From Dehalococcoidia bacterium (lineage in GTDB: Bacteria; Chloroflexota; Dehalococcoidia; Tepidiformales; Tepidiformaceae): a stretch of DNA of 38,400 bases. The position numbers and the translations under genes are program-made. Below, piece after piece: positions 14,480-20,528 of the stretch; the first letter of the stretch is position 1; each line of letters starts with the position of its first letter. Below the pieces are notes generated by a model that did not search any database, was not told where the DNA came from, and saw only the letters and a program-made list of their open reading frames with translations. The DNA lies in assembly GCA_022826585.1 (NCBI GenBank), contig JAJDUR010000125.1, forward strand, positions 1 to 38,400, read 5' to 3'.

Positions 14480-15103
14480 GTGCACACCATCGGCCTGACT
14501 GGCGGCATCGCCAGCGGGAAATCCACCGTCGCGGAGTTCTTTCGCGAGCAGGGCGTGCCCGTTCTCGACGCCGATATCCTCGGGCACCGCACCTACGACC
14601 CCGGCACCTCCACCTTCGCCGCGGTCGTCGCCGCCTTCGGCAGCGACATCGTGGCCGGCGATGGCACCATCGACCGGCGCGCCCTGGGGGGCAAGGTGTT
14701 CGGCAAGCCCGAGGAATTGACCCGCCTGACGGATATCGTCTGGCCCGGCATCCGCGCGCTTGCTTCGCAGGAGCTCTCCGACCTCGAGGTGGCCGGCACG
14801 GGCATCGCCCTGCTCGAGGCCGCCGTCCTCCTCGAGGCCGGCTGGCAGGACATGGTCGACGAGATCTGGGTCACCACCGTCGAGCCCGACCTGGCCGTGG
14901 CCCGATTGGCCGAGCGCAACGGCATGGATGAAGCCGCCGCGCGCGCCCGCATCGATTCGCAGCTCTCCAACGAGGAGCGGATCGCGGCGGCGAGCGTGGT
15001 CATCGAGAACAACGGCACGCGCGAGGAGCTCGCGGACGGCATCGAGGCCGCCTGGCAAGTGCTTCGCGCGCGCACCGGCACAGAGAGGCAGACGATTGGC
15101 TGA
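14480..15103 (+). CDS. coaE: Dephospho-CoA kinase CoaE
   Basis: Protein of 207 residues that phosphorylates the 3'-hydroxyl of dephospho-CoA with ATP, the last step of coenzyme A synthesis. The P-loop [12 protein letters not shown] is at residues 5-16, followed by the substrate-side motif [17 protein letters not shown]. The lid region [22 protein letters not shown] segment and [24 protein letters not shown] near the end are typical of CoaE. The GTG at 14480 is preceded by GGGAG at 7 bases; the frame is open further upstream but encodes no conserved sequence there. It overlaps the MoxR gene by 8 bp, which ties it to the cluster that follows, although its own role is core metabolism. Confidence 0.93.
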
Positions 15104-16004
15104 AGCACCCACCACCACCGAAGTCATGGCACCCGGCGGCCTCGTCCTCGCTGCCGAGGAGTTCACCGTTCGCGAAGAGCCCTACTACCTCCCCTTGGGG
15201 GACGAGATCGAGCTCTTCGAGGCCGCCTTCGAGCAGCGCATCCCCGTGCTGCTGAAGGGCCCGACGGGCTGCGGCAAGACCCGCTTCGTCGAGTACATGT
15301 CCTGGCGCCTCGGCCGGCCCATGACGCACATCTCCCAGGGTGGCGAGGCGCCCCTCGACGACGAGGGCCCGCGCCCCTTCGTCACCGTCGCCTGCCACGA
15401 GGACCTGACTGCCAGCGACCTCGTCGGCCGCTACCTCCTCGATACCGACGGCACGCGCTGGATCGACGGCCCCCTCACCCGCGCCGTCAAGACCGGCGCC
15501 ATCTGCTACCTCGACGAAGTGGTCGAGGCCCGCAAGGACACGACCGTCCTCATCCACCCCCTCACCGACTACCGCCGCCTCCTCCCCATCGAGAAGCTTG
15601 GCCAGGTCGTCGAGGCGGCGGACGGCTTCCTCCTCGTCATCTCCTACAACCCCGGGTACCAGAGCGCCCTCAAGGACCTGAAGCACTCGACCCGGCAGCG
15701 TTTCATCTCCGTCGAGTTCACCTATCCCACCCGCGAGCAGGAGGCGGAGATCATCTCGCACGAGTCGGGTGTCGACCTGGCCGTCTCCATCGAGCTCGCG
15801 AAGCTCGGCGAGAAGGTGCGTAACCTCAAGGAGCACGGCCTCAGCGAGGGTGTCAGCACGCGCCTCCTCATCTACGCCGGCCGCCTCATCGAGCGGGGCA
15901 TCGAGCCCCGCCGCGCCGCCCAGGTGGGCGTCACCTGGGCCCTCACCGACGACCTCGAAGTCCAGCGCAGCATCGAAGAGGTGGTGACATCCATCTTCGA
16001 GTAG
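15096..16004 (+). CDS. MoxR-family AAA+ ATPase (CbbQ/NirQ/NorQ-like)
   Basis: Protein of about 302 residues of the MoxR AAA+ group, closest in pattern to CbbQ/NirQ/NorQ. Walker A GPTGCGKT is at residues 55-62. Walker B YLDEV has Asp140-Glu141. Other features are [16 protein letters not shown] (the MoxR insert region), the sensor-1 segment [11 protein letters not shown] and a pore-side [11 protein letters not shown]. Such ATPases work with a VWA protein to remodel or load metal into a target enzyme. I choose TTG 15096 because AGAGG lies 7 bases before it; the first ATG at 15126 has no ribosome-binding site. The gene overlaps coaE by 8 bp and is followed after 67 bp by the phosphoesterase and VWA genes on the same strand. 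Confidence 0.9.
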
Positions 16005-16071
16005 CCGCCGGCGCGCTCGTTCCGGAGCACTCGTGGAAGCGTGCGCCCATGTTCGCGTGCGAGGGGGCGGC

Positions 16072-19600: not shown

Positions 19601-19907
19601 CCACGCTATCCACAAGCTCAGCGAGACCGAGGCGAAGGTGCGCATCCTCGTCCTCCTCAGCGACGGCCGCCCCCAGGACCACGGCTACGGGCGCGACCGC
19701 ACCGAGAAGGAGTACGCCATCCACGACACCAAGCAGGCGCTCAACGAGGCCAAGCGCGAGGGCATCACGCCCTTCGCCCTCACCGTCGACCGCGCCGGCC
19801 ACGATTACCTGAAGACGATGTGCGAGGACATGGGCTACGAGGTCGTCGGCGACATCGAGTCCCTCCCCCGCCGCCTGCCCGCTCTCTACCGCAGCCTCAC
19901 GGAGTAA
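16683..19907 (+). CDS. Large VWA-domain protein with N-terminal helical repeats (NorD/CobT-like C-terminus)
   Basis: Protein of 1074 residues. Residues about 41-345 contain roughly eight degenerate helical repeats of 36-40 residues. A middle helical region follows (about 350-580), then a long Glu/Asp-rich, low-complexity stretch (about 585-740). The C-terminal VWA domain has a complete MIDAS site: Asp857-x-Ser859-x-Ser861 in LLDMSAST, a Thr in RSTRMGPAIRHA, and an Asp in LLSDGRPQDH. The VWA half resembles NorD/CobT-like partners of MoxR ATPases. The acidic stretch is also seen in CobT-like proteins. No signal peptide is visible, so it should be cytoplasmic. ATG 16683 overlaps the previous stop; the histidine phosphatase follows after 6 bp. 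The overall function is not known; a MoxR-coupled remodelling role is inferred. Confidence 0.88.
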   Translation: MSIAGGLIVRNRSRFDGFPEPLLESYEGSLRALEPRLTPTQLEAWSQGGLDLMAISLRSWESAAEYFKAGPQLAEATPWDTYEQLAREASDLTEQSAPLAVSFLRSAPSTLSYIGPNHLAQWADFGRRLYKGNWKSSSLAAQFYDAGPDLFATIRVSHAGRLVLFLDELARHSYELAAACLTSAPDVLGRLENTDRMPFLTFGVELAQTSWADSRLYFDRGVPLIQRVHGPVRERYLTLAAQVARDHSRSVFQYFEEAAHALGEVEPDDHGPVIELAEQLAPHSAYAAMDFISNAPEVLEKVRIDELAAWQNHGLGILASSKEGGEAYFRLQSSRGEEVLDTLSARVELSKVGDVLRLYAKALTGRNISIHASAVLTEKGIGWVDEERASTDGTTIYLPDVMELYREKDENFAAVKVFTTHQAARLEFGSFTFSFDRPSTLFEDMRPTIPEAPGANPTTEIERFFDLFPDRTLASDIHKIAEGARIDAAITRNYAGIRRALTRMQREELARRPEVSELPLRQAFVENLVRVSLDGLDAVRWPGDQRDAVSNGVGILQQLMARSASVEDTAEATLRLYQLAMSIKNEREEGDEEWDSLPDMDQESLQLDMSDLGGEGAAMEMGEPQEGETEYESPQDIDFRGDFKPELVQLLMKLRDDAELGDAGQISPDQLTEEQLQELLEKSAEIDLDTLLEGDLQNTTGMFLSNLLKEAGTPTLDSDAQSDQPLSDLSTGAEEGEEPLAPIVTTYYYDEWDFRAQDYKPRWCAVKEAALEEGEEDFYEDTLKEYAALVAQTRKQFELMKPELFRKIKKLSDGEDVELDPAIEWMIDIRTGVSPSDKIYWRRNKVDRDVAIAFLLDMSASTDEEIARRDQQYDDSDDDPRKYLSWWVTKRRQELAAPPKRIIDLEKEATVLLITALETIGDDYGIYGFSGYGRDNVEFYVLKDFDEQFGETTKKRIDKVTPIRSTRMGPAIRHAIHKLSETEAKVRILVLLSDGRPQDHGYGRDRTEKEYAIHDTKQALNEAKREGITPFALTVDRAGHDYLKTMCEDMGYEVVGDIESLPRRLPALYRSLTE
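16803..17717 (+). repeat. Array of about eight degenerate helical repeats in the VWA protein
   Basis: At the protein level each unit reads roughly W/F-x3-G-x2-LA-x2-S-x3-A-x2-F-x3-AP-x2-L. Representative cores are SAAEYFKAGPQLAEA, PLAVSFLRSAPSTLSYI, SLAAQFYDAGPDLFATI, ELAAACLTSAPDVLGRL, SVFQYFEEAAHALGEV and YAAMDFISNAPEVLEKV. Units run about 36-40 residues, suggesting an alpha-solenoid. The repetition is in protein, not in exact DNA. Confidence 0.75.
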
Positions 19908-19913
19908 CCCCCC

Positions 19914-20528
19914 GTGACCCTTCTCCTGGTTCGACACGGCGAGTCCGAGGGCAACGTCGAGGGCCTCATCCAGGGCCAGCTCGACAAGCCCCTCACCGAC
20001 CTCGGCCGCGCCCAGGCCCTCGCCGTCGCTGACCGCCTGAAGGACGAGGGCGGCGTCGACCGTATCGTCGCCAGCCCCCTCTCCCGCGCCCTCGCTACCG
20101 CCGAGGCCATCGGCTGTGCCCTCGACCTGCCCGTCGCCACCGATGCACGCCTGATGGAGTACGACTTCGGCGAGGTCAGCGGCCTCACCATCATGGAATT
20201 GCTGGAGCGCCACCCCGGGTGGCGCTTCTGGAACGATGACGAAGCGGCGCCCCTCTTTCCCGGCGAGGAGGGCATGCGGGCCTTCGACGGGCGCGTCACG
20301 GAGGCCATCACCGAGCTGATGGACCTCGACGGTCAGACGATCGCCGTCACCCACGGCGGCGTGGTCATGTCCGCCCTCAACGCCGCCCTGCGCATGCACG
20401 GCGTTGCCGAGCCCGGGCACCACCGCGCGCGTTTTCCCATGAAGAACTGCGCCATCACCGAACTCGACCGGGACGGCGAGGGTCGGCTCATGCTGCGCCG
20501 CCACAACGACGCCTGCCACCTGCCCTGA
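19914..20528 (+). CDS. Histidine phosphatase family protein (phosphoglycerate mutase-like)
   Basis: Protein of 204 residues of histidine phosphatase branch 1. The phospho-accepting motif is at the very N-terminus, LLLVRHGESEGN, with His8 as nucleophile. It continues with the usual KPLTDLGRAQALAVADRL, SPLSRALATAEAI, a catalytic acidic segment DARLMEYDFGEVSG and the second catalytic His in VTHGGVV. The size fits broad-specificity phosphatases of the PhoE/CobC type rather than a true glycolytic mutase. It starts with GTG 6 bp after the VWA gene and is likely co-transcribed with it. Its substrate cannot be read. It is convergent with purS, with 12 bp between stops. Confidence 0.88.
   Translation: MTLLLVRHGESEGNVEGLIQGQLDKPLTDLGRAQALAVADRLKDEGGVDRIVASPLSRALATAEAIGCALDLPVATDARLMEYDFGEVSGLTIMELLERHPGWRFWNDDEAAPLFPGEEGMRAFDGRVTEAITELMDLDGQTIAVTHGGVVMSALNAALRMHGVAEPGHHRARFPMKNCAITELDRDGEGRLMLRRHNDACHLP

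Follow-up and report, generated by a model that had tools for sequence, protein, structure and literature searches.

Few targets are established for pairs of a MoxR ATPase and a protein with a von Willebrand factor A (VWA) domain; the excerpts of four papers name Rubisco, the cytochrome c-dependent nitric oxide reductase (cNOR) and fumarate reductase (PMC9976466, PMC4660213, PMC5437159, PMC10585395). NorQD inserts non-heme iron into cNOR (PMC13036017). RavA-ViaA, a MoxR protein with a VWA adaptor, acts on the respiratory flavoenzyme fumarate reductase according to the excerpt of PMC10585395, and CbbQ/CbbO-like pairs away from Rubisco are already known from that of PMC5437159. The N-termini of MoxR-linked VWA proteins differ in length, and that of NorD has been suggested to give target specificity (PMC9976466, in excerpt). 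Here we describe a locus of this kind on a stretch of 38,400 nt from a Dehalococcoidia bacterium (assembly GCA_022826585.1, contig JAJDUR010000125.1), called the window in the following; the genome is 93.67% complete. We give an even chance to the reading that its MoxR and VWA proteins represent another branch of the CbbQO/NorQD-type activases, which probably serves metabolism linked to coenzyme A (CoA) and electron transfer flavoprotein (ETF) in mostly aerobic Dehalococcoidia.

A CbbQ/NorQ-type ATPase and a NorD-like VWA protein

An earlier note on this DNA, made from the letters alone, had described four plus-strand genes, encoding a MoxR ATPase, a calcineurin-like phosphoesterase (PE), a VWA protein and a histidine phosphatase (HP). 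All four open reading frames are present on that strand, with Pfam matches above the curated cut-offs (AAA_5 and CbbQ_C, Metallophos_2, VWA and His_Phos_1, respectively). The close packing of the last three was also read correctly: the PE stop and the VWA start have one base in common (CCTGATGAGC), and 6 nt separate the VWA gene from the HP gene.

The MoxR gene extends from 15126 to 16004 on the plus strand (AAA_5 E 7e-30, CbbQ_C E 1.7e-27). Its start is more likely the ATG at 15126 than the in-frame TTG at 15096, whose frame overlaps the stop of the preceding coaE gene at 15103. The protein matches the PDB structures of CbbQ (5c3c, E 2.8e-103) and NorQ (9qhd, E 4.2e-90), whereas the model of the gas vesicle ATPase GvpN (TIGR02640) scores 45.8 bits, below its cut-off of 266.8. 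The translation contains a Walker A motif, GPTGCGKT (15258..15281, plus strand), and a helix-2-insert (H2i) motif (15426..15455, plus strand) that fits the pattern GRXLL/IXXXXT, and both patterns are found in 79 of 79 clustered MoxR proteins. The same H2i motif contacts the NorD finger (PMC13036017). Judged by its sequence, this MoxR protein is a CbbQ/NorQ-type ATPase; with RavA-ViaA the pair shares the combination of MoxR and VWA adaptor, but it differs in that the window MoxR carries the CbbQ_C domain.

The VWA gene (16683..19907, plus strand) encodes 1074 amino acids with homology to NorD (E 1.7e-36). NorD is also its best fold match. The C-terminal part is a NorD-like finger plus VWA domain in residues 745-1074 (18915..19904, plus strand), which contains a metal ion-dependent adhesion site (MIDAS), DMSAS, at residues 857-861 (19251..19265, plus strand). 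The MIDAS pattern recurs in 94 of the 95 clustered VWA proteins. The ATPase thus has a partner with the C-terminal finger and MIDAS-bearing VWA domain by which the CbbQO/NorQD group is recognized.

The pair differs from each described system. CbbQO likewise combines a CbbQ-type AAA+ protein with a C-terminal, MIDAS-bearing VWA domain, but its VWA protein is 744 amino acids long, it serves Rubisco, and the window family does not join the CbbQO pair in two unrooted FastTree trees, computed in one run each for MoxR and for the C-terminal part of VWA. NorQD has the NorQ-like MoxR with the H2i motif and the NorD finger and VWA fold in common with the window pair, but the four NorD-type proteins compared give no score with the profile of the solenoid described below, no norB lies beside the window pair, and its genome contains no clear NorB. 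A third pair, on an Aestuarium plasmid (L122), has a 745-amino-acid VWA partner that matches the solenoid profile of the window family; unlike the window pair it lies beside amiE and urea-type ABC transporter genes, and it groups with CbbQO in both trees. At that locus (4873-9026), amiE is followed by the CbbQO-like MoxR/VWA pair, which makes the amidase a possible target there.

A predicted solenoid at the N-terminus of the VWA protein

Residues 1-343 of the VWA protein (16683..17711, plus strand) are predicted to fold as an alpha-solenoid of about twenty helices, arranged in about nine two-helix repeats. Modeled alone with AlphaFold2, residues 1-347 reach a pLDDT of 95.5 and a pTM of 0.90, compared with a mean pLDDT of 79.3 and a pTM of 0.52 for the full-length protein. 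The repeat period is 37-40 residues, with profile autocorrelation peaks at 37, 40, 74 and 77 residues. Sixteen solenoid columns, many of them polar or aromatic, are invariant in 38 sequences (R58, W60, E61, W134, Y174, D195 and R196 among these residues), which argues for one conserved partner. The solenoid is followed by a middle domain (residues 349-580; 17727..18422, plus strand), which is common to long and short family members and against which NorD proteins score marginally, and by a linker (residues 585-740; 18435..18902, plus strand) that is largely of low confidence in the model (per-block pLDDT 28-90, below 50 at residues 601-623, 662-668 and 714-740).

The earlier note had proposed a helical repeat array in place of a short N-terminus. 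The array is there in the model, but it precedes a conserved middle domain and does not merely replace a short N-terminus. A plain replacement is also disfavored by the occurrence of its last repeats in another MoxR-linked VWA protein. The solenoid profile matches the amidase-linked VWA partner with 24.6 bits and an Actinomycetota member with 42.5 bits, well above the best of 1,177 neighbor proteins (12.1 bits) and the best of 402 shuffled or reversed sequences (6.6 bits). Because of the match to the amidase-linked partner, the solenoid appears to be an extended version of an element that at least one other MoxR partner also has. Four NorD-type proteins gave no score with this profile, and neither did the two short members compared, L116 and one from Thiothrix.

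For CbbO, whose N-terminal region was described in 2015 as lacking discernible homology to characterized proteins (PMC4660213, in excerpt), the result is marginal. The one CbbO compared (L131), whose gene adjoins those of CbbQ and form I Rubisco, scored 12.2 bits, compared with 12.1 for the best unrelated neighbor and 6.6 for the best of the 402 control sequences, and we therefore dropped the idea that CbbO carries half of the array. Its first 200 residues alone scored 18.0 bits, and hhalign aligned the last 74 columns of the solenoid with a joint profile of the amidase-linked protein and CbbO (E 5.9e-5, probability 65%). The assignment of the window pair to the activases does not rest on this match.

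Gene order across related loci

We compared 95 loci, consisting of the window, L021-L034 and L035-L114; L010 was left out as a short contig, and four near-duplicate pairs at 98% VWA identity would leave 91. Neighbor clusters were built from gene-caller proteins, and genes were counted by tblastn, each family being represented by at most eight queries. Of the 95 VWA genes, 80 are preceded by a MoxR gene of this type, 77 of them within 2.2 kb, and the association is therefore more than chance.

The most constant neighbor is coaE, the gene for dephospho-CoA kinase. In the window it occupies 14480..15103 on the plus strand (Pfam CoaE E 1.1e-48, TIGR00152 above cut-off; a further in-frame ATG lies at 14366). 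Of the 78 loci with at least 2.6 kb of upstream sequence, 67 have coaE no more than 1.2 kb before MoxR; counted by clusters formed at 80% VWA identity, it precedes MoxR in 36 of 43. The slot between MoxR and VWA is variable. Among the 80 loci with MoxR it contains a PE gene in 38 and a Nudix gene in 7, one of them (L106) having both. In the window this slot is filled by the PE gene (16072..16683, plus strand; Metallophos_2 E 9.3e-25), for which the GTG at 16072 is a likelier start than that at 16033. One of the seven slot Nudix proteins, that of L027, was compared with the PDB and matched the CoA diphosphatase NUDT7 (E 3.1e-22). The HP gene (19914..20528 in the window, plus strand; His_Phos_1 E 4.4e-46) appears to be a lineage-specific add-on: of the 95 loci, 86 of which have at least 1.5 kb of downstream sequence, 19 have a homolog no more than 3 kb behind VWA, and these 19 all belong to the clade of the window, a single cluster at 60% VWA identity.

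MoxR, PE, VWA and HP occur together at 13 of the 95 loci. The four genes do not, then, constitute one fixed combination as the earlier note had supposed, and the phosphatases are not constant neighbors across related genomes, an outcome that it had itself named as speaking against its view. Its four genes do belong to the cluster, but the cluster begins one gene before MoxR, at coaE, which had gone unmentioned and is the steadier neighbor of MoxR. Since PE and HP are inconstant and coaE is the most constant gene, the four-gene set is lineage-specific and the core is coaE-MoxR-VWA.

ETF genes near loci of other families had also been overlooked. In the 58 loci with coaE and at least 6 kb of upstream sequence, etfA and etfB lie upstream of coaE in 25, a gene for an EtfD-like CCG/4Fe-4S membrane protein in 24 and one for an acyl-CoA ligase in 21. 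The ETF-linked loci are spread over several branches of the VWA tree.

The universality of coaE, the PE and HP counts given above, and the fact that neither the EtfD-like protein nor methylmalonyl-CoA mutase occurs in every VWA-positive genome would suit a housekeeping remodeler with several clients, placed beside coaE by accident and accompanied by unrelated phosphohydrolases. We regard this explanation as unlikely: the invariant solenoid columns argue for one conserved partner, and coaE and MoxR stay together where the VWA gene has moved, MoxR still adjoining coaE in all four genomes examined with VWA on another contig.

Distribution and co-occurrence

The VWA protein was detected in 16 of 301 genomes sampled across the phylum, 15 of these belonging to the class of the window. 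Within the class, the family is present in 95 of 157 sampled Dehalococcoidia genomes, in several only as fragments; at least G082, G416 and G307 hold only a short form. Most VWA-positive genomes have one match. The best 80 of at least 545 relatives carry titles of Chloroflexi/Dehalococcoidia or of unspecified bacteria, including the cultured Tepidiforma flava (L049). A distant MoxR/VWA pair is found on a plasmid of Miltoncostaea (Actinomycetota), where genes for thiolase, an AMP-binding protein and acetoacetate decarboxylase lie no more than about 8 kb away. In 26 hand-chosen genomes, each of the 23 VWA-positive ones has a single strong match to MoxR (E 6.1e-123 or lower), to which G270 adds a weak second one, while the three VWA-negative genomes gave none better than E 5e-4.

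We also came across MoxR/VWA arrangements of a different kind. Two genomes with the long VWA protein (G303, G333) additionally contain a second, short pair (L116, L117), whose neighbors, recognized by eye, are a small Nudix gene and a gene resembling that of bL25. Its VWA protein has 640 amino acids in L116; in L117 the reading frames of both genes are broken up. At L058 (5089-13153), in one genome, a VWA gene without an adjacent MoxR follows genes resembling those of tetrapyrrole biosynthesis (hemA, hemC and related; by eye).

The constancy of the locus bears on a possible role in defense. MoxR and VWA genes occur together in ternary conflict systems too, and PADLOC matched the window MoxR weakly to mad8 (E 8.1e-4) and IetA (E 1.7e-3). 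PADLOC gave no match for VWA, PE or HP, however, and the phage collection none for the window system. One copy in most VWA-positive genomes and a stable order beside coaE over the class likewise make membership in such systems very improbable. No VMAP gene was recognized by eye in the commonest neighbor clusters, for which no VMAP model was run.

Search for the target

Our scan agreed with the earlier note that the chaperone-type pair has no known target next to it. Rubisco (PF00016) gave no match in the window genome. With PF00016 in only 12 of 157 class genomes, and in 7 of the 95 VWA-positive ones, we rejected it as the target. The window proteins that we scanned include no cNOR component beside the pair. 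The only PF00115 match of the genome is partial, apparently of COX1 type with NorB not modeled separately, and lies on another contig.

In all, five target families, Rubisco included, were considered by their co-occurrence with VWA over the 157 genomes, and none of the five fits every genome. The phenylacetyl-CoA epoxidase family (PF05138) was rejected with matches in 7 genomes. Methylmalonyl-CoA mutase was rejected as an obligate partner: it occurs in 127 genomes but is absent from at least nine VWA-positive ones (counted from 20 of the 30 genomes lacking it). COX1, in 102 genomes, was the best of the candidates, though imperfect as a universal partner. VWA and COX1 are both present in 85 genomes and both absent from 45 (Fisher odds ratio 22.5, p 9e-16, not corrected for phylogeny; 27.4 when G082, G416 and G307 are counted as VWA-negative). 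Because of this co-occurrence we describe the hosts as mostly aerobic. COX1 marks aerobes here and leaves the oxidase possible as a target.

This co-occurrence, the strongest found, raises the alternative that the client of the machine is a heme-copper oxidase, which it would mature in the way that NorQD matures the nitric oxide reductase, a related enzyme, with the CoA and ETF neighbors reflecting only inherited order. Besides the precedent of non-heme iron insertion into cNOR (PMC13036017), the presence of COX1 in the small genomes G098 and G202 (1.3-1.4 Mb), which lack EtfD-like and methylmalonyl-CoA mutase matches, points in this direction. Both genomes have retained MoxR and VWA, in G202 with coaE alongside. 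Ten VWA-positive genomes lack COX1, including the rather complete G352 (93%) and G377 (91%), and 17 genomes have COX1 and no VWA. Moreover, no oxidase gene was recognized by eye in the 46 commonest neighbor clusters, and the restriction of VWA to a small part of the phylum genomes also speaks against it. We therefore think this alternative possible, at a fairly low probability.

Several observations weigh against a CbbQO/NorQD-type activase for CoA/ETF-linked metabolism. Fifteen of the 95 loci have no MoxR, nine of them despite more than 2 kb of upstream DNA, and 36 of the 80 loci with MoxR have neither PE nor Nudix in the slot. The strict CoA-Nudix signature is present in one of the seven slot Nudix proteins and the strict Nudix box in none, FPGG being found in all seven; since the motif patterns that we used for Nudix, HP and the P-loop of CoaE proved overly strict, no weight is placed on them. 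A minus-strand gene separates the clustered etfA from coaE in 10 of 28 loci, and the linkage to coaE and to the ETF genes may reflect nothing more than inherited order. The EtfD-like protein, found in 144 of the 157 genomes, is not an obligate target, because it is absent from the VWA-positive genomes G098, G202 and G355. The mismatches between VWA and COX1 and the lack of a correction for phylogeny count here as well.

Surroundings of the locus

The third codon positions of the four frames have a G+C content of 0.88-0.93 (the MoxR value being taken from a longer frame that starts at 14760). Downstream, purS and purC follow in opposite orientation. A scan of 14000-21000 for sigma-70 promoter-like sites gave none, with 0.5 expected, and the single terminator-like site there, compared with 2.0 expected, lies on the opposite strand. 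Repeats in the DNA of this region are either short or 62-80% alike, and they seem to reflect similarity at the codon level. The window contains no Rfam match at the gathering threshold and no tRNA.

Upstream, a HigB-like toxin gene (PF05015 E 1.5e-15) and an HTH antitoxin-like gene (13721-14441, minus strand) sit between coaE and an HxlR-type regulator gene (by eye). This pair looks inserted, because the corresponding gap measures 84 nt in the relatives L035, L036 and L022; it is 680 nt in L037. Further away, two ThuA-family genes lie in tandem (24770-26411), and domain matches identify a DnaE-type polymerase adjoining a Y-family (IMS) protein (30829-35428, minus strand), an arrangement presumably similar to the ImuB-DnaE2 mutasome cassette.

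A proposed mechanism and its meaning

By analogy with NorQD (PMC13036017) and CbbQO (PMC4660213, in excerpt), we propose that a MoxR hexamer would be driven by ATP with the VWA finger in its pore. The VWA protein would serve as the substrate adaptor, held to the hexamer by its finger and C-terminus, with the N-terminal solenoid recognizing the target and the MIDAS providing a second grip. ATP-driven motion would strain the bound target. This branch, retained in most Dehalococcoidia with cytochrome oxidase genes, would most likely activate or repair an enzyme of oxidative metabolism with links to CoA and ETF. Its metabolic partners would be CoaE and whichever enzyme fills the slot, PE or a CoA-diphosphatase-like Nudix, and HP would be a late addition to the locus. 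The computations show the family assignment of both proteins, their motifs, the solenoid model, the conserved order of the genes and the joint occurrence of MoxR and VWA, whereas the complex, the class of target and what the phosphohydrolases do are inferred from them.

A more specific version of this mechanism, which we consider doubtful, combines an activase with inhibitor disposal. MoxR-VWA would strip a tight CoA-type or phosphorylated ligand from an acyl-CoA- or ETF-linked enzyme, PE or Nudix might destroy the ligand, and CoaE would remake CoA. The idea derives from two reports in the excerpt of PMC4660213: specific sugar phosphatases can break down inhibitors that Rubisco has released, and RavA relieves the inhibition of lysine decarboxylase by ppGpp.

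Literature searches combining MoxR/VWA with ETF, dephospho-CoA kinase, SAR202, NorQ or Chloroflexota returned no paper on this system among the matches listed, and the main text of a Tepidiforma paper (PMC10284905) does not mention the terms sought. What appears to be new, compared with these listings, is a class-wide branch whose predicted recognition arm is longer and whose genes lie in a CoA/ETF context.

A relative of the machine that reactivates Rubisco is thus found in a genome without detected Rubisco and beside a gene of CoA synthesis. Its recognition arm is confidently modeled and has invariant residues, and its conserved gene context narrows the target. If the marginal CbbO match holds, the common repeats would offer a route to modeling the N-terminus of CbbO. 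With matches in 95 of 157 genomes, the family concerns a whole class of bacteria, and one host genus has a named cultured strain, Tepidiforma flava. If inhibitor disposal took place as outlined, the module would be to a heterotroph what Rubisco activase and the phosphatase of its inhibitors are to carbon fixation.

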